Of a DNA stretch of 64,000 nt, positions 8,030 to 48,132 are shown piece after piece. The notes beneath the pieces were generated by a model that worked only from the letters and a program-made list of their open reading frames with translations, was not told the origin of the DNA and did not search any database. Where the stretch lies: positions 47,365-111,364 of the forward strand of contig JAAZEM010000139.1 in NCBI GenBank assembly GCA_012512265.1. The letters run 5' to 3'. The DNA comes from Armatimonadota bacterium (GTDB lineage: Bacteria; Armatimonadota; JAAZEB01). Numbering within the stretch: position 1 is the first letter of the stretch; each line of letters begins with the position of its first letter. A program made the translations under genes and the position numbers.

Positions 8030-8378
8030 TGGTGGAGGCGGGCGGAGTTGAACCGCCGTCCAAAGGGAGATCGGCAGAGACCCCTACGAGCGTAGTCTGC
8101 GTTTTTCGTTTCGCCCCATCGGCTCCCGCAGACGGGATCCTCCGGCGCTAGGTCGCTAAATGTCCCTGGCAGCCCGCGTACCCTGACACGCCAGGTAATC
8201 CGGCTTTGGTAACACCCAGTACCGATCCCGCCGGATGGGGATCGGCCGGATGGCTGCCCTTAGGCAGCGAGTGCGAGTTGATTCTCGGCGTTTGTTTGTT
8301 TGCCGCTTTTTACGAGGCCAGCGGCGCCTCGGCTCGCATTCTCTGTCTCTCTCGCCCCTGTCGAAACCCGTCGCCCCC
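8030..8378 (-). ncRNA. ssrA: Transfer-messenger RNA (tmRNA)
   Basis: 5' GGGGGCGACGGGTTTCGAC, 3' TTCAACTCCGCCCGCCTCCACCA; acceptor GGGGGCG/CGCCTCC pairs; tag frame GKQTNAENQLALAA-stop. Confidence 0.96.
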
Positions 8379-14565: not shown

Positions 14566-14846
14566 AAGTGATCGTGCACCCGCCCTCGAATCGCGGCCTC
14601 CAGGCGTTACCCGAGCAGCCAGCTCCGACCAGGCTTCCTCGCGGCACACACCCCTGATACCTTACCACTGCTTCCTTCCGGACCTGACGGGATTCGATAC
14701 CGGAATGTTGCGCGAGACCCAGTCATCCACACCGCTTACACGGGTCAGACCCCACAGGCCGGACCCTCAGGCCGGGAGTTCGACCCCGCTATAGCGGATT
14801 GCGGGTTACAGGGCACCGCTAGTTCCCCGTCTAGCACGACCAACTG
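14566..14846 (-). ncRNA. ffs: Signal recognition particle RNA, large (Alu-domain-containing) bacterial type
   Basis: Contains GTCAGGTCCGGAAGGAAGCAGTGGTAAG (helix 8 core), plus GTGCTAGACGGGGAACTAGCGGTGCCCTGTAACCCGCAATCCGCTATAGCGGGGTCGAA 5' domain and GGGTAACGCC...GGGTGCACGATC 3' domain like B. subtilis scRNA; GGTCGTGC/GCACGATC terminal helix. Ends approximate. Confidence 0.93.
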
Positions 14847-14888: not shown

Positions 14889-14980
14889 TGGCGGAGAGAG
14901 TGGGATTCGAACCCACGGTGGGGTTGCCCCCACACCGCACCTCCAATGCGGCGCCCTAAACCAGACTAGGCGATCTCTCC
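14889..14980 (-). tRNA. tRNA-Ser (anticodon GGA)
   Basis: GGAGAGA/TCTCTCC acceptor, anticodon loop TTGGAGG, long variable arm GTGGGG-GCAA-CCCCAC, GGGTTCGAATCCC T arm, encoded CCA. Confidence 0.95.
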
Positions 14981-22537: not shown

Positions 22538-22635
22538 TGGCGAGGGCGTGTGAGAATCGAACTCACCCAGGACAGCTCTCGCTGCCCCGCGCAGGGTTTG
22601 AAGCCCAGGCCCTTCACCAGAAGAGACCCGCCCTC
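22538..22635 (-). tRNA. selC: tRNA-Sec (anticodon UCA)
   Basis: GAGGGCGGGTCTCTTCTGGTGAAGGGCCTGGGCTTCAAACCCTG...GGGGCAGC-GAGA-GCTGTCCT long variable arm...GTGAGTTCGATTCTCACACGCCCTCGCCA; 98 nt, long D stem, loop CTTCAAA (UCA). Confidence 0.88.
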
Positions 22636-25878: not shown

Positions 25879-26071
25879 GGAGAGCGAATCCTGATCCGCC
25901 TCTGCTTTCAAAGGGCCGGCGGTCGCGCATGCTGACGGCGCCGGCTCCAGAGAGGCCGCGATAGGGCACCGCTCTCCCTATCCCCTCATCTACCCCGCAG
26001 AGGATTCGCGCGCGCTGGTCGCGCCTCCTCATCCCGATGTGCCACGGCGGTGCGCCCCGGGAGGTAAGTCA

Positions 26072-26866
26072 ATGCTGATCATCGGTGAGCGGTTGAATAG
26101 CACCCGCAAGAGTGTCGGCGAGGCGGTGAAGGCACGCGATACGCAGTTCGTCCGCGAGGAAGCGGTGCGGCAGGCGGAAGCCGGCGCGCATTTCCTCGAC
26201 TGCAACGCTGCGGTCGTGGGCGTCGAAGCCGAGCCGGAGGCTCTCGTATGGCTGGTGGAGACGTGCCAGGAGGCTACCGGGTTGCCCTGTGCCATCGACT
26301 CGCCGAACTCGGCGGCGCTGGAGGCCGCGCTGAAAGTTCACAAGGGCCAGGCGGTCATCAACTCCATCACTGCCGAGCGCGAGAAATTCGCGCGCATTCT
26401 GCCGCTCGTGACGGAGCACCAGGCGAAGGTGGTGGCGCTCTGCATGGGGGATGAGGGCATCCCCCAGACGGCCCAGGCGCGGATTCAGGCGGCCGAGTTC
26501 CTGATGGAGAACCTCACGGCGGCAGGAGTGATGCCTGACCAGATCTATCTCGACCCGCTCGTCTACCCGGTGAGCACCAACAGCCACGCAGGACTGGATG
26601 TCTTGGAGACGATCCGCCATATCCACGCGACGCACCCAGGCGTCCACACGATCTGCGGTCTCAGCAACGTCTCCTATGGGCTGCCGGCGCGCAAGAACCT
26701 CAACCGCGCGTTTCTGGTGCTCTGCATGGGCGCGGGGCTGGATGCGGTGATTGCCGACCCGCTTGATGAGGCGCTGATGGCGCTTGTCTACGCGAGCGAA
26801 GCGCTCCTGGATCGGGATGAGTATTGCGCCAACTACCTTTCGCTGGCGCGCCAGGGAAAGCTTTAG
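26072..26866 (+). CDS. Methyltetrahydrofolate:corrinoid methyltransferase (pterin-binding/DHPS-fold, AcsE/MtvA-like)
   Basis: MLIIGERLNSTRKSVGEAV...GAHFLDCNAAVVGVEAEPEALVWLVETCQEATGLPCAIDSPNSAALEAAL...VINSITAE...GLSNVSYGLPARKNLNRAF. Start set at 26072 after GGGAGGT. Confidence 0.93.
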   Translation: MLIIGERLNSTRKSVGEAVKARDTQFVREEAVRQAEAGAHFLDCNAAVVGVEAEPEALVWLVETCQEATGLPCAIDSPNSAALEAALKVHKGQAVINSITAEREKFARILPLVTEHQAKVVALCMGDEGIPQTAQARIQAAEFLMENLTAAGVMPDQIYLDPLVYPVSTNSHAGLDVLETIRHIHATHPGVHTICGLSNVSYGLPARKNLNRAFLVLCMGAGLDAVIADPLDEALMALVYASEALLDRDEYCANYLSLARQGKL

Positions 26867-26891
26867 TCACACGCGACATCGGAGGAACACG

Positions 26892-28559
26892 ATGGCCGAT
26901 GATCTTTCCATCGCCCGGGCGGCCGTGCTGCGGCCGGTGACCGAGGTGGCTGCATGCCTGGGCTTGCGCCCGGACGAGCTGGAGCTCTACGGCGAGCACA
27001 AGGCGAAGATCAAACCGGAGGCGCTGGCGCGCCGCGCCGACGCGCCAATGGGCAAGCTGCTTCTCGTCACTGCCATGACGCCGACGCCCGCCGGGGAGGG
27101 AAAGACCACTCTCGCAATTGGCCTGGCCCAAGGCCTGGCGCGCATCGGGCAGCGCGCGTGTGTCGCCCTGCGCGAGCCCTCGCTCGGGCCGGTTTTTGGC
27201 GTGAAGGGCGGCGCCACGGGAGGGGGCTATGCCCAGGTGCTCCCGATGGAGGAGATCAACCTCCATTTCACCGGCGATATCCATGCCGTGACGACGGCGC
27301 ACAACCTTCTCGCCGCCCTGGCTGATAACGCCTTGCACCAGGGCACGGGGCCCGATCTGGACCCCCGACGCATCGCGTTCCCGCGTGTGCTCGACCTGTG
27401 TGATCGCGCCCTGCGTCATGTCGTGCTTGGACTGGGCGGTCCTGCCGACGGCGTGCCTCGCCAGGGGGGCTTCGAGATCACGGCGGCCTCGGAGGTGATG
27501 GCGATCCTGGCCCTGGCCAGCGGCTTGCAGGATCTGCGCGAGCGCCTGGGGCGGATCGTTATCGGCTACACCACCGCCGGCACGCCGGTCACCGCCGCTG
27601 AGATCGAGGCGACGGGTGCCATGCTCGCCGTCCTCCGCGATGCGCTCAAGCCGAACCTGGTGCAGACGATTGAGGGCGGGCCGGCGTTCATCCATGCCGG
27701 CCCCTTCGGCAACGTGGGCCCCGGGGTGAGCAGCCTGATGGCGACGCGCCTCGGCTTGCAGACCGCGGATTACTGTGTCACCGAGGCGGGCTTTGGATCC
27801 GAGTTGGGCGCGGAGAAGTTCTTCGATATCAAGTGCCGCTGCGGTGGGTTGACGCCGAACGCGGCGCTGGTCAGCGCCACCATCCGCGCCCTAAAGTACC
27901 AGGCGGGGAAGCCGCTTGCCGCGCTGGCGGAGCCGGATGTGGACGCGGTGAGAGCGGGCTTGGCCAACCTGGAAAAACACGTAGAGAACGTGCAGGCCTT
28001 CGGCGTTCCCGTGGGCGTGGCCCTCAATCGCTTCACCACTGATACGCGCGAGGAGATCGACGCGGTGTTCGAGGCGATGGCGCGCCGAGACGTGCCCGTC
28101 GCCCTCGCCGATGTGTGGGCCAGGGGCGGCGAGGGAGGACGCGACATTGCCAAGATGATGGTGGATCTCGCCGAGCAGCCGTCCGGCTACCGTCCTCTCT
28201 ACGACCTGGAGGAGCCCGTGCGCGCCAAGATCGAGAAGATCGTGACGCGCATGTATGGTGCCGACGGCGTGGAGTACTCGCGTGAAGCGGAGAAGCGCCT
28301 GCTGGAGATTGAGGCGCACGGCTACGGCAACCTCGCCATCTGCATGGCAAAGACGCAGAACTCCCTCTCGGATCAGGCGGCGCTGCGCGGGCGCCCGACC
28401 GGGTTCAAGGTGACCGTGCGCGATATGAAGGTGTTTGCCGGCGCCGGCTACATTGTCGTCTACGCGGGGAATATCCTGACGATGCCCGGCTTGCCACAGG
28501 TGCCCGCGGCTACCCGCATCAACGTGAACGAGGAGTGGGGCATCGAGGGGCTCTTCTGA
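26892..28559 (+). CDS. fhs: Formate-tetrahydrofolate ligase
   Basis: ELYGEHKAKIKPEAL; VTAMTPTPAGEGKTTLAIGLAQGL; REPSLGPVFGVKGGATGGGYAQVLPMEEINLHFTGD; TEAGFGSELGAEKFFDIKCR. Start at ATG 26892. Confidence 0.97.
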   Translation: MADDLSIARAAVLRPVTEVAACLGLRPDELELYGEHKAKIKPEALARRADAPMGKLLLVTAMTPTPAGEGKTTLAIGLAQGLARIGQRACVALREPSLGPVFGVKGGATGGGYAQVLPMEEINLHFTGDIHAVTTAHNLLAALADNALHQGTGPDLDPRRIAFPRVLDLCDRALRHVVLGLGGPADGVPRQGGFEITAASEVMAILALASGLQDLRERLGRIVIGYTTAGTPVTAAEIEATGAMLAVLRDALKPNLVQTIEGGPAFIHAGPFGNVGPGVSSLMATRLGLQTADYCVTEAGFGSELGAEKFFDIKCRCGGLTPNAALVSATIRALKYQAGKPLAALAEPDVDAVRAGLANLEKHVENVQAFGVPVGVALNRFTTDTREEIDAVFEAMARRDVPVALADVWARGGEGGRDIAKMMVDLAEQPSGYRPLYDLEEPVRAKIEKIVTRMYGADGVEYSREAEKRLLEIEAHGYGNLAICMAKTQNSLSDQAALRGRPTGFKVTVRDMKVFAGAGYIVVYAGNILTMPGLPQVPAATRINVNEEWGIEGLF

Positions 28560-28891
28560 CCGGCGTGTTCGCCTGAGACCCCGGCATACTTCCAGGGAAG
28601 GATGCTGAACCACAGGGTTGCGTGTCGGGTCCTCTGTGGTGTGGCGGGCGTTCGGGCCCGCGATGAATCGGGTGTTGAGCACCTTACCAGGGGTGTGACG
28701 CCTGGCCGTTGGTGCCCGTCGCTGCCATGCGCCTGGCGAGTTCCGGCAGGCGCACGTCACGATCACCACGACTGGAAGCATCGGAACAGGGGCGGAGTTT
28801 GAGCGTATCGCGTGAGGGGGACAAGCACGCAACACGGGTAGGCCGGCGGAAGCCTAGTACGAAGGGGCCGCTCGTCGGCATCAAGGGCGGG

Positions 28892-29749
28892 ATGAGCGAC
28901 TTCAACGATGCATCGGAGTGCCGGCTCTCGCTGCGCCTGCGGGCTCCGGAGGGCATGCTCTCGGCGGACCAGCTGATGGTCCTGGGCGATGTCGTTCGGC
29001 GGCACGGGATCGGTTTCGTCCGGATCGTGGGGCGCAGTGGCCTGGAGGTGCCTGGGATCGCCTGCGAGGAGATCCAGACAGCCAAGGCGCTTCTCGAGGC
29101 CAGCGGCCTGGGGACCGCGAGCGAGGGTGGGGCGGGGAGCTCGCTCTCCGTCTGCTCCGGGCAGGGCCGGTGTGTCAGCTACTTTGTGGATGCGGGCACC
29201 CTGGCGATGGCGCTAAGCGGGCTTCTCGAGAGCGAAGCGATGCCGATGCCCGTGCGCGTTGCAATCTCGGGGTGTGCCGAGGCATGCAGCTGCCCCCAGA
29301 CCGCCGACATTGGATTTGTCGGCATCGTCGAGCCGATCCTCGTCCGGGCGGAGTGCCTGGGGGATGGCGCGTGCGTCGGGGCATGCAAGGAGGGGGCGCT
29401 CATCATGCGCCGCGGCCTGCCACGGCGCGACCCCCAGCGGTGCAACTTCTGCGGCGATTGTGTAGCGGCGTGTGGTTTCAATGCGTTGCGCCCGGCTCGC
29501 GTCGGCTATACGGTTTACGTGGGCGGGAAGGCAGGCCGTCGGCCTTGCCTGGGGGCGGAGCTCGCGCGCTTTGTCCCTGAGGAGGATGCCCCCGAGGTGG
29601 CCGCGCGCGTGATCGGCTTTGTGAGCGAGCGAGCTCGGCCCCGCGAGACCTTTGGCGCTGTGCTTCGCCGCATTGGCCTCGACGCGCTCCGCAGTTACGC
29701 CATCACTCGCCCATCCCAGCGCACCCGCCCCCAGGAGATGACGCCATGA
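28892..29749 (+). CDS. Siroheme/4Fe-4S nitrite/sulfite reductase-like protein with fused ferredoxin domain
   Basis: SVCSGQGRC (C-x5-C) and SGCAEACSCPQTADIGFVG (C-x3-C) siroheme-cluster signature; ferredoxin motifs CLGDGACVGAC and CNFCGDCVAAC. Start uncertain (ORF open from 28709). Confidence 0.82.
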   Translation: MSDFNDASECRLSLRLRAPEGMLSADQLMVLGDVVRRHGIGFVRIVGRSGLEVPGIACEEIQTAKALLEASGLGTASEGGAGSSLSVCSGQGRCVSYFVDAGTLAMALSGLLESEAMPMPVRVAISGCAEACSCPQTADIGFVGIVEPILVRAECLGDGACVGACKEGALIMRRGLPRRDPQRCNFCGDCVAACGFNALRPARVGYTVYVGGKAGRRPCLGAELARFVPEEDAPEVAARVIGFVSERARPRETFGAVLRRIGLDALRSYAITRPSQRTRPQEMTP

Positions 29750-30897
29750 CATCCCGCGAGCGAATCCTGACTACCCTGCGGCACCAGGAGCCGGATCGCG
29801 TACCGTTTGATCTGGGCTCTACCAAGGTGACCGGAATCCACCGCATTGCCTATGAGCGCCTGCGTCCGGCTCTCGGCCTGGCGCCGCGCGAAGCGGCAAT
29901 CAGCGACCTTACCCAACAGCTTGCCGCTGTCGATGAAGACCTCCTTCAGGCCCTGCGCGTCGATACGCGCGGCGTGGCCAGTGGCGACCCTTCCGGCTGG
30001 AGACTGTGCATCCGGGAGGAGGGCCGCTACCGCACCTTCACCGACGCCTGGGGATTGCCCCGCCGCATGCCCCGCGACGGCTGGTATTACGATCTTTGCG
30101 GTCACCCCCTCGCCGAGGCCACGTCGCCCGAGGAGATCCGGCGCTATCCCTGGCCGGACCCGCAGGACCCGGCGCGGTTCGCGGGCCTGCGTGCGCGCGC
30201 CCAGGCGGCGCGCGACACCGGGTGCGCCGTGATCCTCGGTGGCGTCTGCGCGGGGCTTACCGAGATGTGCCTCTGGCTCCGTGGCTTCGAGCGCTTCTTC
30301 ACCGATCTCGTTGCCGACCGGCCGATGGCCGAAGCGATGCTCGATCTCATCCTGGAAACGAAGCTGCGCTATTGGGAGCGCGCCCTGGCCGAAGTGGGCG
30401 ACCTGGTGGATATCGCGATGGAGGGGGACGACCTGGGGATGCAACAGTGCCTGCTGATGAACCCGCGCGTTTACCGCGAGGTGGTGAAGCCCCGCCAGGC
30501 GCAGCTCTTCGCCCACATCAAGAAGCAGGCGCCCGTCTTCGTCTTCTACCACACCTGTGGTAGTGTCGTCGAGATTCTCCCGGACCTGATCGAGGTGGGC
30601 GTGGATATCCTCAACCCGGTGCAGGTGAGCGCGGCTGGCATGGACACCCGGCGGCTCAAGGCGGAGTTCGGGCGCGATATCGTCTTCTGGGGCGGTGGAG
30701 TGGATACCCAGCGTATTCTGCCACATGGCACGCCGCAGGAGGTTCGCGATGAGGTGCGCCGGCGCATCGATGACCTCGCTCCCGGCGGCGGTTTCGTCTT
30801 CAACACCGTCCACAACATCCAGGCCGATGTGCCCCCAGAGAACATCCTGGCGATGTGGGAGACGTTGCAGGAGTATGGCGTCGGGAAAGCCGAATGA
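29746..30897 (+). CDS. Uroporphyrinogen decarboxylase-family methyltransferase (MtaA/MtvB/CmuA-like)
   Basis: MTSRERILTTLRHQEPDRVPFDLG...FYHTCGSVVEILPDLIEVGVDILNPVQVSAAGMDTRRLKAEFGRDIVFWGGGVDTQRILPHGTPQEVRDEVRRRI; H-x-C Zn motif; ATGA overlap with upstream gene. Confidence 0.9.
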   Translation: MTSRERILTTLRHQEPDRVPFDLGSTKVTGIHRIAYERLRPALGLAPREAAISDLTQQLAAVDEDLLQALRVDTRGVASGDPSGWRLCIREEGRYRTFTDAWGLPRRMPRDGWYYDLCGHPLAEATSPEEIRRYPWPDPQDPARFAGLRARAQAARDTGCAVILGGVCAGLTEMCLWLRGFERFFTDLVADRPMAEAMLDLILETKLRYWERALAEVGDLVDIAMEGDDLGMQQCLLMNPRVYREVVKPRQAQLFAHIKKQAPVFVFYHTCGSVVEILPDLIEVGVDILNPVQVSAAGMDTRRLKAEFGRDIVFWGGGVDTQRILPHGTPQEVRDEVRRRIDDLAPGGGFVFNTVHNIQADVPPENILAMWETLQEYGVGKAE

Positions 30898-38498: not shown

Positions 38499-39380
38499 GT
38501 GTACACAAGCAACCTCGATCTACAGACAACCGTGCGGGACTCCTTCACCCTGCGTGGCGTGGGCATCCATTCCGGCGAAGCGGTGGCGGTCACAGTTCAG
38601 CCGGCGTGCGAAGGGGGCATCCGCTTCCATCGTGCCGACCAGCCAGCCGTCAGCATCCCGGCGCATCTTTCGTCACTGCAGGCGACGCCTCGCTGTACGG
38701 TGCTCGCTGCCGGCGAGATCCGCGTGGCGACGACGGAGCATCTCCTGAGCGCTCTTTGGGCGTTGGGGGTCGATCACGCCCGCGTCCTGGTAGAGGGCGA
38801 TGAGCTTCCGGCCTTGGATGGAAGCGCCCTCGAGTATGTGCAGGCGTTACAGCGCGTCGGCCTGCGAGATCTGGATCAGCCGCGAGAGTGGCTCGATCTG
38901 GCGCAGCCGGTGTGGGTGCGCCAGGGAGATGCGAGCATCCTGGCGTTGCCGGCGCCGGCGTTCAAGGTGACCTACGTGCTCGAGTATGACCACCCGATGG
39001 TGGGCACCCAGGTCGTGAGCGCCGACGTGGATCCTGGCACCTTCGCCGAACAGGTGGCGCCCGCGCGCACTTTCGGCTTCCTGGAATGGGCTGAGGAGCT
39101 CCGTAAGCGTGGCCTGGCACGGGGAGCCTCGCTGGAAAACACCGTCGTCATTGCCCCGGATCGGATCCTATCGCCGTTGCGCTTTGCCGATGAGTTTGCT
39201 CGCCACAAGATATTGGATATGATTGGAGATCTGGCGCTTCTCGGGCGTCGCCTGCGCGCGCACGTGATCGCGGTGCGTGGTGGGCACGCGCTGAACGCGT
39301 CACTGGTGGGCCGGATCCTGGAGTTGTGTCAGTTGGACGGGGCAACTCGATCCGGTTCCTCGCACGAGTCTGCCGGGTGA
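38499..39380 (+). CDS. lpxC: UDP-3-O-acyl-N-acetylglucosamine deacetylase
   Basis: SFTLRGVGIHSGEAVAVTVQPA; VATTEHLLSALWALGVDHARV; ARTFGFLEWAEELRKRGLARGASLENTVVI; DEFARHKILDMIGDLALLGRRLRAHVIAVRGGHALN. GTG start. Confidence 0.95.
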   Translation: MYTSNLDLQTTVRDSFTLRGVGIHSGEAVAVTVQPACEGGIRFHRADQPAVSIPAHLSSLQATPRCTVLAAGEIRVATTEHLLSALWALGVDHARVLVEGDELPALDGSALEYVQALQRVGLRDLDQPREWLDLAQPVWVRQGDASILALPAPAFKVTYVLEYDHPMVGTQVVSADVDPGTFAEQVAPARTFGFLEWAEELRKRGLARGASLENTVVIAPDRILSPLRFADEFARHKILDMIGDLALLGRRLRAHVIAVRGGHALNASLVGRILELCQLDGATRSGSSHESAG

Positions 39381-39431
39381 AGTCGGCCCGGCTGGGCGAT
39401 TCGCGCTCGTAAGAATGGAGGCCCTGTTGCG

Positions 39432-39893
39432 ATGAACGTCGTGCAAATCCAGAACGTCATCCCACACCGCTACCCCTTCCTCTTAGTGGATCGCATGGAG
39501 GAAGTCGTCGTCGGTGAACGCGCCGTCGGGATCAAGAACGTGACGATGAATGAGGCCCATTTCCAGGGCCATTTTCCCGGTGCGCCTGTCATGCCGGGGG
39601 TGCTGATCCTCGAGGCGATGGCTCAGGTGGGCGCCGTGCTCCTGCTCTCGGATCCGCGCAACAAGGGCCAGCTCGCCATGTTCGCCGGTATCGATAATGT
39701 CCGCTTCCGCAAGCCGGTGGTTCCGGGCGACACTCTCCGCATCGAGGTGAATATGCTCCGCAACCGCGGCCGCTTCGTGAAGGTGGAGATCACCGCGAGC
39801 GTGCAAGGCCAGGTTGCGGTATCGGGCGAGTTTACTTGTGCTGTGGTAGACCCAGCGGCGATCGCGAATGAAGGGGCCGCGGAGACTTCCTGA
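39432..39893 (+). CDS. fabZ: 3-hydroxyacyl-ACP dehydratase FabZ
   Basis: IPHRYPFLLVDRMEEVVVGERAVGIKNVTMNEAHFQGHFPGAPVMPGVLILEAMAQVGAVLL. Confidence 0.97.
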   Translation: MNVVQIQNVIPHRYPFLLVDRMEEVVVGERAVGIKNVTMNEAHFQGHFPGAPVMPGVLILEAMAQVGAVLLLSDPRNKGQLAMFAGIDNVRFRKPVVPGDTLRIEVNMLRNRGRFVKVEITASVQGQVAVSGEFTCAVVDPAAIANEGAAETS

Positions 39894-39894
39894 G

Positions 39895-40686
39895 ATGGCA
39901 ATCCATGAGACCGCTATTATCGACCCCGATGCAGAGATCGGCGTCGATGTCGAGATCGGGCCCTACACCGTGATCGGGCCCGCCGTCCGGATTGGCGATC
40001 GCTCGCGCCTGGGGGCGCACGTCGTCATCGAGCGAGGTACGACGCTCGGCGCGGAGTGCCAGGTGGCGAGCGGCGCCATTCTTGGTGGCGCGCCGCAAGA
40101 CACCAAGTACCAGGGTGAAGAAACTTTCCTGTTGATCGGCGAGCGTAACATCATTCGGGAAGGCGTTACCATTCACCGCGCCACCGGCGAAGGCAACGCG
40201 ACCATCGTCGGCAACGAGAATATGATCATGGCCTACGCTCATGTCGGCCACAACGCGCGTCTGGGGAACAACATCACCATCGCCAGCTACGTGGGCATCA
40301 GCGGGCATGCCACTGTGGAAGACCGCGTCGTCTTCGGTGGCTTCGTTGGCGTGCATCAATTCGTGCGCATCGGCAAGATGACCATGATCGGCGGGATGTC
40401 GCGCGTCGTGCAGGACGTGCCCCCGTTCATGCTCGTCCAGGGAGAGCAGCTCCAGCCCCACGGCCTGAACGTGGTTGGCTTGCGCCGCGCAGGTGTCACC
40501 GCGGAGGTGCGCGAGCAGCTCAAGGAGGCGTACCGACTTCTCTACCGCGCCGGGCTCAACCTCCAGCAGGCGGTCGAACGGATCCAGGCCGAGGTGCCCC
40601 CCAGCGAAGAGCGCGACTACCTGGTGAGCTTCCTCCTAGCCGTGCCGACGGGCCGGCACGGGCGCCAGCTCGATAAGCCCAAGTGA
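39895..40686 (+). CDS. lpxA: Acyl-ACP--UDP-N-acetylglucosamine O-acyltransferase
   Basis: IHETAIIDPDAEIGVDVEIGPYTVIGPAVRIGDRSRLGAHVVIERGTTLG hexapeptide repeats; GGAPQDTKYQGEETFLLIGERNIIREGVTIHRAT; NVVGLRRAG. Confidence 0.96.
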   Translation: MAIHETAIIDPDAEIGVDVEIGPYTVIGPAVRIGDRSRLGAHVVIERGTTLGAECQVASGAILGGAPQDTKYQGEETFLLIGERNIIREGVTIHRATGEGNATIVGNENMIMAYAHVGHNARLGNNITIASYVGISGHATVEDRVVFGGFVGVHQFVRIGKMTMIGGMSRVVQDVPPFMLVQGEQLQPHGLNVVGLRRAGVTAEVREQLKEAYRLLYRAGLNLQQAVERIQAEVPPSEERDYLVSFLLAVPTGRHGRQLDKPK

Positions 40687-40693
40687 TAGTGCC

Positions 40694-41923
40694 GTGAGAA
40701 TCGTCATCACGGCCGGTGAAGCCTCGGGCGACCTATTCGGCGCCGAACTGGCGCGGGCCCTCCGAGACCTGGACCCGAACATCGTGGTATCCGGGATCGG
40801 GGGGCCGCGCATGCGCCGGGCAGGGGTGACCCTCGTTCGTGATTCCAGCACCTGGGGCTCCATCGGCGTCGTCAACGCGCTCAAGGTCCTGCATCGTGCC
40901 CTCGCGGGCTATGCCGCTCTACGCCGGCACCTGCGCGCGCACCCGCCTGCCGTCCTGGTGCCGATCGATTTCGGCGCCTTCAATGTGCGCGTCGGACGTT
41001 TCGCTCGCTCTCTCGGTATCCCAGTTTACTATTTCATCGTCCCTGGATCGTGGCGCCGATCCGGGCCGATCAGTCCCTCGCTCCTCGAGGCCGCAGACTA
41101 TTTCTGCACGCAGTTGCCCTGGCATGCCGACCGCCTCCGAGCGGCCGGAGCGCGCGCCGAATTCTATGGGCATCCCCTCCTGGACCTAGCATTTCCCTCA
41201 CGTCCCGCCGAGGCAATACGCCAGGCGTGGGGATTGGAAGTGGATGCCCCGGTGGTTTGCCTTTTCCCTGGAAGCCGGCGGCACGAGGTGGAGCATATTC
41301 TCCCGGCATTCCTCGACGCAGCCGCGCTCATCCGCGAGAGGGTTCCCCGGGCACGTTTCGTCCTGGGTTTGGCAGAAGTCGTGGATCGACGCCAGGTGGG
41401 GCGGATTCTGCGTACGCGGGGCTGGAGCGCGCGAGAGCCCGCGGAGGACCAGGGCGGTCCGGGGCGCGGGGCGTTTCCGTTCGCGGCCTCTTCGCCAGGA
41501 TCGCACACGCCGGAGGTGATCATGGTCACCGGGCGCACCTATGACTGCCTGGCCGTGGCGAACGCGGCGCTGTGTGCCTCTGGCACGGTGACGCTGGAAT
41601 CGGCGATCCTGGGAGTGCCCCACTTGATCGTTTACCGCGGCTCGTTCGGGATGCGCCTGCAGTATCAGCTTGTGAAGCACAAGATCGGGTATATCGGGTT
41701 GCCCAATCTGCTCCTGGATGCGTCCATCTGCCCCGAGCTTCTGGATACAGCAGCGACACCGGAACGCATCGCGGACGAGTGCACCGCACTGCTTCTCGAT
41801 GAGGAGCGCGCGCGCGCGCAAAAGGATGGCTTTGCCCGCCTGATGGAGCTGCTTGGACAACCGGGCGTGATTCGCCGGGCCGCGGAGAGGATCCTGGATG
41901 TCGCGAGAAGAACGCAAGCCTGA
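40694..41923 (+). CDS. lpxB: Lipid-A-disaccharide synthase
   Basis: RIVITAGEASGDLFGAELARAL; VLVPIDFGAFNVRVGRFARSLGIPVYYFIVPGSWRR; VCLFPGSRRHEVEHILPAFLDAA; CASGTVTLESAILGVPHLIVYRGS. Confidence 0.94.
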   Translation: MRIVITAGEASGDLFGAELARALRDLDPNIVVSGIGGPRMRRAGVTLVRDSSTWGSIGVVNALKVLHRALAGYAALRRHLRAHPPAVLVPIDFGAFNVRVGRFARSLGIPVYYFIVPGSWRRSGPISPSLLEAADYFCTQLPWHADRLRAAGARAEFYGHPLLDLAFPSRPAEAIRQAWGLEVDAPVVCLFPGSRRHEVEHILPAFLDAAALIRERVPRARFVLGLAEVVDRRQVGRILRTRGWSAREPAEDQGGPGRGAFPFAASSPGSHTPEVIMVTGRTYDCLAVANAALCASGTVTLESAILGVPHLIVYRGSFGMRLQYQLVKHKIGYIGLPNLLLDASICPELLDTAATPERIADECTALLLDEERARAQKDGFARLMELLGQPGVIRRAAERILDVARRTQA

Positions 41924-42461
41924 GCGACTGCTGAACGCGGTGGCGCGCCGACGCACGCTCCTGCTCGTTATTCTCCCCCTGATTGGGATGCTGGTGGCCG
42001 AGCCGCGCCCGGCTCTCTATTTGGTGGGGGTGCTAGCTGTGGTGGCCGGACAGGCCGTGCGCTTCTGGGCAGCCGGGTACATTGTGAAGGCAACGCAACT
42101 CACGACGACAGGTCCCTACGCGCATGTAAGGAACCCTTTGTATCTGGGAAGCCTCCTGATCACGCTGGGCTGGGGAACGATGTCGGGGCGCCTGGTGGTG
42201 GCGGTGCTCCTGCTCGCGGTGTTCGCGTTGACCCACGCGCTGGCGATCCGCTCGGAAGAGAGCTACCTGGGCGAGCGTTTCGGCGAGGAGTTCCACGCCT
42301 ACTGCCGGCAGGTGCCGCGGCTTTTTCCCCGGTTGCGCCCGGGGACGAGCGGCTCAGGAGACTACTCCTGGCGGCGCGCCCTCCAATGTGATGGGGAGGG
42401 GTGGACCTCCCTCGGAGTGGCTGCGCTGGCGGGGCTCTATGCGACACGGTTCTGGTGGTGA
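41898..42461 (+). CDS. Isoprenylcysteine carboxyl methyltransferase / PEMT-family membrane methyltransferase
   Basis: ATQLTTTGPYAHVRNPLYLGSLLITLGWG...SEESYLGERFGEEFHAYCRQVPRLFPRL. Confidence 0.85.
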   Translation: MSREERKPERLLNAVARRRTLLLVILPLIGMLVAEPRPALYLVGVLAVVAGQAVRFWAAGYIVKATQLTTTGPYAHVRNPLYLGSLLITLGWGTMSGRLVVAVLLLAVFALTHALAIRSEESYLGERFGEEFHAYCRQVPRLFPRLRPGTSGSGDYSWRRALQCDGEGWTSLGVAALAGLYATRFWW

Positions 42462-42476
42462 TGGAGGTTCGGGGAG

Positions 42477-44324
42477 ATGAGGTCTGCGACCGGCGCCGGA
42501 TGGGGCGCGCACGGTGCGAAGCCCTGCAAGAAGGGGAGCTGGTTCCAGCGCATGTTGGGCCGGCTGCGCCTTCTCGTGCTCCCCGAGTCGCACGACTCCG
42601 TCTGGCGCCTGTGGGAGTATACACGCGTCGACCTGCGCCGGATCGTTTTCGGGTGCCTGTGCGGCATCGGATACGTTCTTCTGACGCTCGCGACCGCCTA
42701 TCTGATCAGGGCGATGCTAGGGGCATTGGTGGATGCGAACCCGCGCAAGATCGCGCTCTGCGCCGCCGCGACCCCGCTCCTCTACCTGATCAAGGGATGC
42801 TTTTACTACGGGCAGGTTTACCTCCTCTCGAGTGCCGCCGAACGCCTGGCGCAGCGCCTCCGCAACCGCCTCTACGAGCACATGCAGACGCTCTCCCTCT
42901 CCTTCTTTGAGAACCAGAAGACCGGGGGACTGATGGCCACGATCGCCAGCGATGTGCCGGTGATCCAGCAGACGTTCACGGTTGCTATCCTCGAAGGGGT
43001 GATCGGCCCGGCGATGGTCGTCGGCGGCCTCCTCGTGATGTTCTACATGAACTGGCGGATGGCGATCGTGACGATCGTCTCGCTGGTCGCTATCGGGAGC
43101 GTCATCTCCAAGGCAAGCCTGCGGATGCGCCGGGCGAGCGAGGCGATCCAGAAGAGCATTGGAGCGACATCAGGGTTGGCGACAGAGTCGCTGTCGGCCA
43201 TCCGTGTGGTGCAATCGTTCTGCATGGAGGAGCGCGAGGCGGAGCGCTTCCGTGATGAGAGCCAGCGCACCTACCGCAGCGGAATGCGGATCGTGCGCAT
43301 CAACGGGATCCTCCGGCCCACCATGGAGCTCTTGGGCGCCACTTCGGTGGCGTTCATCCTCTGGTATGGCGGCATGGAGATTGTGCAGGGGCGGCTGACG
43401 GTCGCCGGGGTCACAATGATCTTCTACGTCGCCCTCGAGATCACCAAGGGAATCCAGCAGGTCGGCCGGCTGAGGATGTATGTCGACCGCGTCCACGGCG
43501 CGGCAGAGCGGATCTACACCGTTCTGGACATGCAGCCGGAAGTCCGCAATGCCCCCGACGCTCTCACCCTCGAAGAGGTGCAGGGCGACATTGCCTTCGA
43601 GGATGTCCACTTCGCGTATGCGGATGGCGACCCGGTGCTGCGGGGCGTCAGCTTCAAGGTGCGCCCAGGTGAAGCGCTCGCGGTGGTCGGTCCGAGCGGC
43701 GCGGGGAAGTCCACCATCGCCAATCTGATCCCCCGGTTCTATGACGTGACCTCGGGGAGCGTCCGTGTCGATGGGCATGATGTGCGCGCGATCACGACTC
43801 AATCGCTGCGCGCGCATATCGGTATCGTCGCACAGGAAACCGTGCTCTTTTCGGGCACCATTCGCGAGAATATCGCCTACGGGCGCCCGGATGCCACGGA
43901 AGAGGAGATCATCGAGGCCGCCCGGGCCGCGAACGCGCATGACTTCATCTCGCAGATGCTCCCCGATGGGTATGAGACGGTGGTAGGCGAGCGGGGCGTG
44001 AAGCTCTCGGGCGGGCAGCGCCAGCGCATCGCAATCGCGCGCGCTCTGCTGAAGGATCCCCGCATTTTGATCCTGGACGAGGCCACCTCTGCGCTCGACA
44101 CCGAGTCGGAAGCTCTTGTTCAGGAAGCCCTCGACAAGCTGATGCAGGGGCGCACGACGATTATCATCGCGCACCGCCTCTCCACGGTGCGCAAGGCAGA
44201 CCGGATACTGGTGCTCGCGCAGGGTCGGATTCAGGAGCAGGGCACGCACGCCGATCTGCTTCAGATGAATGGGCTGTATGCCCGGCTCTACGAGGTGGGC
44301 GCCGGGCTGGAAGCGGTGAAGTAA
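42477..44324 (+). CDS. msbA: Lipid A exporter-type ABC transporter (MsbA-like)
   Basis: TM domain + [53 protein letters not shown]; position in lipid A operon. Start may be 42552. Confidence 0.88.
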   Translation: MRSATGAGWGAHGAKPCKKGSWFQRMLGRLRLLVLPESHDSVWRLWEYTRVDLRRIVFGCLCGIGYVLLTLATAYLIRAMLGALVDANPRKIALCAAATPLLYLIKGCFYYGQVYLLSSAAERLAQRLRNRLYEHMQTLSLSFFENQKTGGLMATIASDVPVIQQTFTVAILEGVIGPAMVVGGLLVMFYMNWRMAIVTIVSLVAIGSVISKASLRMRRASEAIQKSIGATSGLATESLSAIRVVQSFCMEEREAERFRDESQRTYRSGMRIVRINGILRPTMELLGATSVAFILWYGGMEIVQGRLTVAGVTMIFYVALEITKGIQQVGRLRMYVDRVHGAAERIYTVLDMQPEVRNAPDALTLEEVQGDIAFEDVHFAYADGDPVLRGVSFKVRPGEALAVVGPSGAGKSTIANLIPRFYDVTSGSVRVDGHDVRAITTQSLRAHIGIVAQETVLFSGTIRENIAYGRPDATEEEIIEAARAANAHDFISQMLPDGYETVVGERGVKLSGGQRQRIAIARALLKDPRILILDEATSALDTESEALVQEALDKLMQGRTTIIIAHRLSTVRKADRILVLAQGRIQEQGTHADLLQMNGLYARLYEVGAGLEAVK

Positions 44325-44471
44325 GCGCGCGATAGCGATGAGGTGGCTGATGGATCCTCTAACGGGCCGCCGGGAGCGCCGCGCATCTCCTCTGCATAGA
44401 AGAGCGCCTCGCCGCGGGATCGGGGCGTGAGACAGGAGAGTTCAGTGAGTGTAGCGAGACGTTGGCGGGTG

Positions 44472-45803
44472 ATGCATCTGCTCTATAACACGTTGATCAT
44501 CCTTGCGTTGCCCGCGTTGCCCGTCTACTTTGGCTATCGGTGGTTGCGGGGCAAGTCGCGCGAGGGATGGGCGGAGCGGATGGGTTACCTCCCCGTCTTC
44601 ACGGGCGAGCATCCTATCTGGGTGCATGCGGTATCGGCCGGCGAGGCCGTGGCGGCAGAGGCGGTGGTGCGTGCCCTGCGCGAGCGGCTGCCCGACGTGC
44701 CGATCCTCTATACCGCGGGCACGCCGGAGGGCCGGGCGACGGCGCGTAAGCGCATGGGAAGCCTGCTAACCCATGTGGCGTATGCGCCCCACGACCTTCC
44801 CTGGGCGGTGGCCCGCGCCATGGATCGGGTTCGCCCGCGGCTTTACCTGCTGGTAGAGTCGGACCTTTGGCCAAACTTGCTGCAAGCGGCGGCGGTGCGC
44901 GGGGTGCCGGCGATGCTGGCCAATGGCTACATCTCCGAGCGAACGCTCCGGCGCGGCCGTCTGGTGCCTGCGCTCTACCGCTGGATCTTTGGCAATTTGT
45001 GCTCGATCTGCGTGCAGACGGAGGCGGTGCGCCGGCGCGCGTTGGCGCTGCATGCTGTGCCAGAGCGCGTGTGCGTGGTCGGCAACGTGAAGTATGATCA
45101 GGCGACCGCGCCGCTCACTGATGAGCAGGCGAGCCGCTGGCGTGCCCTGTTTCGCTTGCGGCCGGACGAGCCGGTCCTGGTGGCGGGCAGCACCCACCCG
45201 GGCGAAGAGGAGAAGGTCCTCGCGGCCTACTCGGCGATGCGCGCGAGTGGGATCGCGCCGCGTCTTATCCTGGCGCCTCGGCATCCGCAACGTGCCGAGG
45301 AAGTGGAGACACTGGTGCGTCACGCGGGATTTGCCTGTGTGCGCCGGAGCCACCTGGGCGAAGGGGATGGACCCGCGCCAGAGCCGGATGCGGTGATTCT
45401 GCTCGATACCATGGGGGAGCTGGCCGGCGTCTTCTCGCTTGCCACAGTAGTTTTCCTGGGGGGCAGCCTGGTGCCGGTGGGCGGGCACGACATTCTGCAG
45501 CCCCTGATCGCCGGAAAGCCGGTCCTGCTCGGCCCCTACACTCATCGCCAGCGGGAGATCGTGGAGGACGCCCTGGATGCCGGGGTGGTGTGGGTCGTTA
45601 CCACTCCTCAAGAGTTGGCACGTCGGTCGCTTGAACTGATGAAGGACGCCGGTAGTGGCGACGGTTATGCGGCGAACGCAGTCAGCTTCGTATCAGGCCG
45701 ACGCGGTGCTTCCCAGCGCTGCGCGGAGGAGGCGGCGCGTCTTTTGGGAGAGATGCAGCCGTTACGCACCCATGGGGTTGGGAAGGCGGTCGGTAAGAGT
45801 TGA
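44472..45803 (+). CDS. kdtA: 3-deoxy-D-manno-octulosonic acid transferase
   Basis: REGWAERMGYLPVF...IWVHAVSAGEAVAAEAVVRALRERLPDVPILYTAGTPEGRATARK; SDLWPNLLQAA; GNVKYD; FLGGSLVPVGGHDILQPLIAGKPVLLGPYTHRQREI. Confidence 0.95.
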   Translation: MHLLYNTLIILALPALPVYFGYRWLRGKSREGWAERMGYLPVFTGEHPIWVHAVSAGEAVAAEAVVRALRERLPDVPILYTAGTPEGRATARKRMGSLLTHVAYAPHDLPWAVARAMDRVRPRLYLLVESDLWPNLLQAAAVRGVPAMLANGYISERTLRRGRLVPALYRWIFGNLCSICVQTEAVRRRALALHAVPERVCVVGNVKYDQATAPLTDEQASRWRALFRLRPDEPVLVAGSTHPGEEEKVLAAYSAMRASGIAPRLILAPRHPQRAEEVETLVRHAGFACVRRSHLGEGDGPAPEPDAVILLDTMGELAGVFSLATVVFLGGSLVPVGGHDILQPLIAGKPVLLGPYTHRQREIVEDALDAGVVWVVTTPQELARRSLELMKDAGSGDGYAANAVSFVSGRRGASQRCAEEAARLLGEMQPLRTHGVGKAVGKS

Positions 45804-47068
45804 GAGGCGAGGTCAGCGCTGGATGCGAGAACAGGGAGCGCCTGGCGGTGCGTTTCCCATTTTCTGCTTCTCTCCCGACGCCTTACTTGCTGCGCGTCGC
45901 CGATGGGGAGGCCACGGGTCCGCTCGCGTTCGGGATCCGCGCCGGGCTGCGCGCCCTCTCCTGGCTCTATCTGGCCGGCGTCGGTGCCTCGGTGCTGGCG
46001 CATCGATCGGGGCTACTTCGCTGCGAGCGCGCGCCTTGCCCGGTGATCGGCGTTGGAAATCTCACCGTTGGGGGAACGGGCAAGAGCACGGCGACCGCTG
46101 AGTTCGCCCGCTGGCTACTGGAAGCCGGTCTCCGCCCCGCCGTGCTCAGCCGGGGCTATGGGGTGCAGGGCAGCCCGCCGGTGCGCGTCGTCTCGGATGG
46201 CAAAAACGTCTTGCTGGGCCCGGAGGAGGGGGGCGACGAGCCGGTGATGCTGGCGCATCACCTGGCCGGAGTTCCCGTGCTCATCGGTCGGCGCAGGCCG
46301 CACACCGCGCGCGCGGCCGTCGAGCGCTTCTCTGCCGACGCCTGCCTGCTGGATGATGGCTTCCAGGTATGGAACCTGCGTAAGGATCTGGAAGTCGTCC
46401 TCCTGGATAGCCGCCGCCCCTTCGATAACGGCTATGTGCTCCCTCGCGGCATGTTGCGCGAGCCGCCGTCGCATCTGGGTCGTGCGGATGCCGTGGTACT
46501 GATGGAACCGGATCGGGTGGAGCGGGAGGCGCTGGCACGTCTGCGTAAGCAGGTGGAGGCGCTCGCGCCCGGGGCGCTTGTTGCCGAAGCCGGCCGTGTT
46601 CCAGAACGCCTCTGGGATCTTGCCACAGGCCAGGATTACCCCCTCTCTGCCCTGAACGGCCTTCCCATCGTGGCCCTTTCCGCCATTGGCAACCCGCAGG
46701 GCTTTGAGGACCTGCTGGGCAGTTTGGGCGCGCGAATCTATCCTGCGCGCCTGCCGGACCACCATCCGTATACCCCCGATGATGTGGAGTGGGTCCAGCG
46801 CCTGGCGAAGCAGAAAGGCGCCGCCGCCATCATTACGACGGAGAAGGACGCGGTGAAGCTCGATGAATGCGGCGGGGCGCGAGGCCGCCGGGGCGAGGCG
46901 GGCGCCTGGGGCAGGGCGCTGGCCACGGAGGCTTCCCAGGAGAGCGTGATTTCGGCGGCTCCCGATGGGAAGGCCCCGGTGCTGGTCTTCTCCGTCCGCT
47001 TGCGCTTTACCGCGGGCGGCGACGCGCTGCGCGAGCGCGTGCTGGCGACCGTGAGGGAGAAGCGTTGA
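45800..47068 (+). CDS. lpxK: Tetraacyldisaccharide 4'-kinase
   Basis: PCPVIGVGNLTVGGTGKSTATAEFARWLLEAGLRPAVLSRGYG; GDEPVMLAHHL; LDDGFQVWNLRKDLEVVLLD; ITTEKDAVKL. Confidence 0.94.
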   Translation: MRGEVSAGCENRERLAVRFPFSASLPTPYLLRVADGEATGPLAFGIRAGLRALSWLYLAGVGASVLAHRSGLLRCERAPCPVIGVGNLTVGGTGKSTATAEFARWLLEAGLRPAVLSRGYGVQGSPPVRVVSDGKNVLLGPEEGGDEPVMLAHHLAGVPVLIGRRRPHTARAAVERFSADACLLDDGFQVWNLRKDLEVVLLDSRRPFDNGYVLPRGMLREPPSHLGRADAVVLMEPDRVEREALARLRKQVEALAPGALVAEAGRVPERLWDLATGQDYPLSALNGLPIVALSAIGNPQGFEDLLGSLGARIYPARLPDHHPYTPDDVEWVQRLAKQKGAAAIITTEKDAVKLDECGGARGRRGEAGAWGRALATEASQESVISAAPDGKAPVLVFSVRLRFTAGGDALRERVLATVREKR

Positions 47069-47094
47069 ATACGCGTTTCGGAAAACGGTTGAAG

Positions 47095-48132
47095 ATGAAG
47101 GAGCCGCGCCGGATTCTGGTCGTGAAGATGAGCTCTATCGGGGATGTGCTCTTCGCGACGCCCGTCTCGCGAGCCCTGCGCGAGGCGTTTCCGAAGGCGC
47201 ACATCGCCTGGGCGGTGGACCGGCGGTGCGCGCCAGTCGTCGAGGGGAATCCCTACCTCGATGAACTGGTGGTGATGCAGCGCGACTCCGGGCGGGTGAG
47301 AGATCTGCTTGGCTACTGGCACACCACGCGCGCCTATCCGGCCTTCGATTGGGCGCTCGACCTGCACGGCCTGGCGCGCAGCGCGCTCGTCATGTGGGCC
47401 TCGCGCGCACCGTTCCGCGCCGGGCTGGCCGGCACGCGCGAGGGAAGCCGGTTCTCCTATAATCACATCGTGAGCGTGCCGGATGCCGGCGTACATCGCG
47501 TGGACTACTATGCGTCGTTCCTCGAGGCGCTTGGGATCCCCGTGCCCCATCGTGAGATGCTGTTCTACACCTTGCCCGAGCACGCGGAGGAAGCCCAGGC
47601 GTTGCTGAGCGAGCTCGCGCCCGGCCACGGCCCGCTCGTGGTCGTCTCGCTCACTGCCGGCAGGATGCAGAAGTGCTGGATGCCGGAGCGATTTGGCGCG
47701 GTGGCCGACCGGCTGATCGAGCGCCACGGCTGTCGCGTCGCCGTGATCGGGAGCAAGACCGACCGGCCGTACGTGGAGCAGATGAAAGCAGCGATGTCGC
47801 ACGCTCCTGCCGACCTGTGCGGGCGCATCGGCCTGAAAACCCTGGGCGAAGTGCTTCGGGCGGCCAATCTCTTCCTCAGCGCCGACACGGGCCCGATGCA
47901 CATCGCTGCCGCGATGAAGACGCCGGTGGTGGCGCTTTTTGGTCCCACCGAGCCGGAGCTTTACGGCCCGTGGCGGACGGATTCCACCGTGATCCGCAAG
48001 CACTGCCGGTGCGCACCGCGCTGGCGCCATCCCGTATGCGAGGACCGCGAGTGCATGCGCGCCATTACCGTTGACGAGGTCGAAGAAGCCGTCGTTGCAC
48101 TGCTCGTTCGCACCGGCGCGCTGGTGGGGTAG
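47095..48132 (+). CDS. Glycosyltransferase family 9 (heptosyltransferase-like)
   Basis: RRILVVKMSSIGDVLFATPVSRALREAFPKAHIAWAVDRRCAPVVEGNPYLDE...LKTLGEVLRAANLFLSADTGPMHIAAAMKTPVVALFGPTEPELYGPW. Confidence 0.92.
   Translation: MKEPRRILVVKMSSIGDVLFATPVSRALREAFPKAHIAWAVDRRCAPVVEGNPYLDELVVMQRDSGRVRDLLGYWHTTRAYPAFDWALDLHGLARSALVMWASRAPFRAGLAGTREGSRFSYNHIVSVPDAGVHRVDYYASFLEALGIPVPHREMLFYTLPEHAEEAQALLSELAPGHGPLVVVSLTAGRMQKCWMPERFGAVADRLIERHGCRVAVIGSKTDRPYVEQMKAAMSHAPADLCGRIGLKTLGEVLRAANLFLSADTGPMHIAAAMKTPVVALFGPTEPELYGPWRTDSTVIRKHCRCAPRWRHPVCEDRECMRAITVDEVEEAVVALLVRTGALVG

Follow-up and report, generated by a model that had tools for sequence, protein, structure and literature searches.

The gene at positions 22538 to 22635 of the window (the whole 64-kb stretch of DNA analysed in this study) codes, with a probability of about 0.96, for the selenocysteine tRNA (tRNA-Sec) in a complete bacterial selenocysteine system, whose clearest target in the genome is a thioredoxin/NHL-propeller protein encoded on contig C203 with the motif YGUINC. 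The first-pass annotation had proposed that this genome decodes UGA as selenocysteine, a proposal supported by the tRNA-Sec itself, by selA, selB and selD, and by a UGA-containing gene with a conserved hairpin. Following the established pathway, seryl-tRNA synthetase would be expected to load serine onto the tRNA, SelD would make selenophosphate, SelA would use the selenophosphate to turn Ser-tRNA into Sec-tRNA, and SelB would bring the Sec-tRNA to UGA codons that have a bSECIS hairpin downstream.

ARAGORN, run on the window, reports exactly 22538–22635 as a complete tRNA-SeC(tca) on the minus strand, the strand having gone unstated in the first-pass annotation. The Rfam covariance model RF01852 matches 22542–22635 over 91 of 91 model positions with 71.7 bits (E 1.1e-12), well above its gathering score of 47 bits, and the earlier identification of a tRNA-Sec with a UCA anticodon is therefore borne out. 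The earlier description holds for the CTTCAAA loop, the 8-bp variable arm with its GAGA loop, the 5-bp T stem with 8 nt after it and the encoded CCA, but the D stem, which had been given as 5 bp (CTCTT/AAGGG), is actually 6 bp with a 4-nt loop and forms a normal tRNA-Sec D arm. The features of the gene are as follows:

22538..22635, minus strand: tRNA-Sec (selC) gene, anticodon UCA, G73, encoded CCA, 98 nt (ARAGORN; Rfam RF01852; conserved in G001 and G002)
22628..22635, minus strand: 5' acceptor strand GAGGGCGG, 7 standard pairs with 22542–22548, 8th position G.A with 22549
22610..22625, minus strand: D arm, 6-bp stem CTCTTC/GAAGGG, 4-nt loop TGGT
22592..22608, minus strand: anticodon arm CTGGG-CTTCAAA-CCCTG with one U.U mismatch, anticodon UCA
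22569..22588, minus strand: variable arm, 8 bp GGGGCAGC/GCTGTCCT, GAGA loop; across three genera one pair is changed on both sides and two on one side
22550..22566, minus strand: T arm, 5-bp stem GTGAG/CTCAC, loop TTCGATT

tRNA-Sec, unlike tRNA-Ser, typically has a D stem of 6 bp and a D loop of 4 nt, which are involved in SelA recognition (PMC7609411). The gene combines this D arm with a score above the RF01852 cut-off, the UCA anticodon, the long variable arm and G73, all of them marks of a tRNA-Sec. Compared with the canonical 8/5 bacterial tRNA-Sec (RF01852), it agrees in the UCA anticodon, the D arm, the 8-nt 3' acceptor side and 5-bp T stem, the variable arm, G73 and CCA, but its eighth acceptor pair is G.A and its anticodon stem holds a single U.U. 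By length the acceptor and T branch is 8+5, with 12 standard pairs and the G.A at position 8, like that of most relatives read from the phylum. In 7/5 tRNA-Sec, which have a 12-bp acceptor-T stem, 7 nt lie between the T stem and G73 (Secmarker paper, PMC5330540); the present gene likewise has 7 standard acceptor pairs, but because 8 nt separate its T stem from G73 it is read as an 8/5 layout with a non-standard eighth pair rather than as 7/5.

One tRNA-Sec over the cut-off was found in each of the three genomes of the class (G000, which is the source genome, G001 and G002, one genome per genus); for the phylum as a whole the figure is at least 200 of 292 genomes. Apart from the G.A and U.U the structure has 30 pairs; every one of them is preserved across the three genera and three are changed on both sides, which rules out chance as the origin of the structure; slid controls were 43–59% paired and showed no two-sided change.

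The gene does have both non-standard pairs that had been pointed out earlier: G.A as the eighth acceptor pair, and U.U within CTGGG/CCCTG. When 30 other tRNA-Sec of the phylum (L114–L143) were read with ARAGORN, position 8:66 was non-standard in 24: two of these (L135 and L140) have A.G, and the other 22 have G.A, A.A or C.A. L115 and L125 are counted as paired in this tally, being G-C by eye, as ARAGORN had dropped the end of the CCA and shifted the column by one. The U.U at 28:42 occurs in none of these 30, and a pattern search through 291 genomes found it in nine other tRNA-Sec of the phylum (G223, G224, G225, G229, G230, G234, G235, G236 and G244), which belong to families f32, f34 and f35, with ARAGORN confirming the mismatch in the two that were drawn in full. 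The idea that the U.U is a class-specific trait was dropped on the strength of this search. Since both pairs recur in tRNA-Sec of the phylum, they are regarded as ordinary phylum variation and not as decay, and the tRNA itself is another example of the known bacterial tRNA-Sec, ordinary for its phylum.

No match to selA, selB or selD exceeds the cut-off within the 64-kb window, as the first-pass annotation had observed in placing the rest of the system elsewhere, and the genome-wide search found all three on other contigs of the same assembly, above the NCBI curated values used as cut-offs. The machinery genes and the candidate target are located as follows:

contig C183: selB, 347.3 bits for the main stretch and 381.9 with the neighbour in frame (cut-off 242)
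contig C86: selA, 569.5 bits (cut-off 268)
contig C110: selD, 379.9 bits (cut-off 125)
contig C110, directly upstream of selD: selenium-specific yedF (YedF), 218 bits (cut-off 110)
G000:C203:1144-2622 (L222): candidate selenoprotein gene for a thioredoxin/NHL-propeller protein, 493 residues read through UGA, motif YGUINC

The SelD protein is encoded without an in-frame UGA and has a cysteine near its N terminus (MSRAAGCAAK). The tRNA, selA, selB, selD and the C203 target lie on five different contigs of an assembly of 219 contigs with 5.98% estimated contamination, and given this fragmentation and contamination it is likely, but not proven, that they all belong to one genome.

The in-frame TGA of C203 surfaced in an AhpC/TSA search of the genome. 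The protein carries the Pfam domains Thioredoxin_8 and NHL, and over residues 10–490 it matches human NHLRC2 (PDB 6GC1) and plant SOQ1 (PDB 7DJJ) with E values of 5e-122 and 9e-124, thus sharing with them a thioredoxin-like domain and an NHL propeller over almost its whole length; it differs in that selenocysteine stands in for the second cysteine of CCINC (GUINC) in the bacterial protein. The orthologs read comprise four of the Sec type (C203, G001, G063 and G064) and 26 with CCINC, G040 and a G065 fragment (one TGA each) being left out. The C203 UGA aligns with the second cysteine of CCINC in the 26 Cys-type orthologs, and the other Sec-type members read FGUINC in G001 (68% identity to C203, with the UGA at the same position), FCUINC in G063 and YCUINC in G064. 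In a tree built with U written as C, the four Sec-type proteins fall on one side of a 100/99 branch. The end of a 137-kb contig (G000:C209:137210-137518) repeats some of the C-terminal portion of the C203 protein at 94% identity, which may reflect strain variation or a break in the assembly.

An in-frame-UGA gene with a bSECIS hairpin had been predicted to exist in the genome, and C203 provides one, with a hairpin that covaries. On the 3' side of the UGA, all four Sec-type genes read have a hairpin with a 7-bp stem and an AGUU loop (CUCCCUC-AGUU-GAGGGAG or CUGCCGC-AGUU-GCGGCAG), whose stem is 100% paired in each. From one of the two families to the other, two of the stem's seven pairs have both bases exchanged (C-G becoming G-C, U-A becoming G-C); pairing is lost in slid controls. 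Folding energies for the homologous 33 nt range from −12.0 to −14.8 kcal/mol in the three Sec genes that were measured, versus −0.8 to −10.6, with other shapes, in the Cys genes. G064 forms the same 7-bp stem, and the hairpin is not formed in the Cys-type orthologs (n = 26). The distance to the loop and the G within it agree with the published bSECIS model. Folding of the region in single sequences goes only modestly beyond shuffles (z −1.05 to −2.03), so the case for the hairpin is built on conservation and covariation. Taken with its UGA, this makes C203 probably a selenoprotein gene.

A look-alike of the selC*-type tRNA-Cys or allo-tRNA kind, charged with cysteine, serine or alanine, would have UGA read as an ordinary amino acid, and the UCA anticodon with a long variable arm does also occur in some selC* tRNA-Cys (PMC7609411). 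However, selC* tRNAs have U73 and an 8/4 fold with an A51a bulge, and allo-tRNAs an 8/4 or 9/3 fold and mostly other anticodons (PMC7609411), whereas the gene described here, with G73, an unbulged 5-bp T stem and 8 nt on the 3' acceptor side, falls outside both groups. The full selA/selB/selD set in the assembly argues against such a tRNA as well, making it very unlikely. The chance of a degraded or unusual tRNA-Ser or tRNA-Leu, suggested by the long variable arm, is practically nil, being refuted by the covariance-model scores that had been named earlier as the check on this point: the gene is scored as a tRNA-Sec above the RF01852 gathering score and has the UCA anticodon, the 6-bp D stem with its 4-nt loop and the 8-nt acceptor side, while the window's own tRNA-Ser (14889–14980) is reported under RF00005 instead.

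It might also be proposed that the G.A and U.U mark a decaying tRNA-Sec in a lineage that is losing selenocysteine, and the genome is indeed without a Sec-type formate dehydrogenase. Against this, the non-standard pair 8 and the U.U are common to the three genera, whose other pairs change only in pair-preserving ways, and both mismatches recur across the phylum; selA, selB and selD are all intact, and the genome contains a UGA gene whose hairpin is conserved. Decay is accordingly given very little credence, and the gene is best read as the tRNA of a complete selenocysteine system. The sequence itself shows the genes for the tRNA, SelA, SelB, SelD and YedF as well as the UGA gene and the covarying hairpin that follows its UGA; from these we infer charging, selenocysteine insertion and a redox role for selenocysteine in the C203 protein.

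The C203 protein reaches the cut-off of none of the curated NCBIfam selenoprotein models. No NHL, NHLRC2 or SOQ1 type is named among the 119 prokaryotic selenoprotein families of a 2026 inventory (PMC13188914); closest to the C203 protein there are a PF08534 redoxin UxxC family and a cd02966 UxxC family, whose representative sequences may or may not share its architecture. A full-text literature search, with most subscription journals outside its coverage, returned nothing relevant on selenoproteins with an NHL repeat or SOQ1, or on selenocysteine with NHLRC2 or UINC. On balance, the tRNA would seem to serve a type of selenoprotein not described before: a thioredoxin-propeller protein resembling NHLRC2/SOQ1, with selenocysteine for the second cysteine of CCINC, present in at least two families of the phylum and having its own covarying bSECIS hairpin.

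That UGA means selenocysteine in this lineage appears settled as far as sequence allows, and annotation that stops at UGA will consequently truncate some redox genes; in C203, a conserved active-site UGA would be annotated as a stop. Since selenocysteine tends to occupy the attacking position, an NHLRC2/SOQ1-like protein in its Sec form might help in pinpointing the catalytic cysteine of CCINC.

C203 encodes the one probable selenoprotein found in the source genome, and this low number is a point against the complete-system reading. Formate dehydrogenase had been suggested as a likely selenoprotein, but no formate dehydrogenase-like match in the genome has an in-frame UGA. FlpD/MvhD was rejected as a candidate, with no TGA in the three class genomes, as was CMD/AhpD, which is without a match in the source genome, and C203 alone among the AhpC-TSA proteins found in that genome has an in-frame TGA. 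Across about 1.92 Mb of sequence (38% of the genome, the window among it), a six-frame scan for TGA inside coding-like sequence turned up just same-frame neighbouring genes and noise. As a control, the upstream half of C203 scores 0.05 against the strict threshold of 0.1, so that the strict setting would have missed it; a relaxed motif scan (threshold −0.15) would admit it. Because the assumption-free scan covered about 38% of the genome, further selenoproteins may be present in it.

Also in favour of the selenocysteine reading, four distinct Sec-type peroxiredoxin-like genes (L207, L209, L213 and L215) were seen in the sister genomes G001 and G002. G001 encodes a PrxU-type peroxiredoxin (FTFVUPTE; 371.6 bits to NCBIfam NF040737), which like PrxU has selenocysteine at the peroxidatic position, and a Prx-like protein with KGMWUPNC, and G002 encodes proteins with MTGGUTRE and RGEYUHST. 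Both peroxiredoxins and Prx-like proteins with selenocysteine are established kinds of selenoprotein (PMC13188914).

Elsewhere in the window, positions 26039–30894 hold a pterin-binding methyltransferase-like ORF and a formate--tetrahydrofolate ligase, both 3–6 kb from the tRNA, followed at 28709–30894 by sulfite-reductase-like and URO-D-like ORFs, which suggests genes of a one-carbon or acetyl-CoA pathway. A lipid A cluster at 38499–48129 (LpxC, an LpxA-like acyltransferase, LpxB, an ABC transporter, Kdo transferase, LpxK and a heptosyltransferase) points to an outer-membrane envelope, and alongside these envelope genes the window carries a large-type SRP RNA at 14572–14839. A tmRNA with the tag AENQLALAA is located at 8030–8378.
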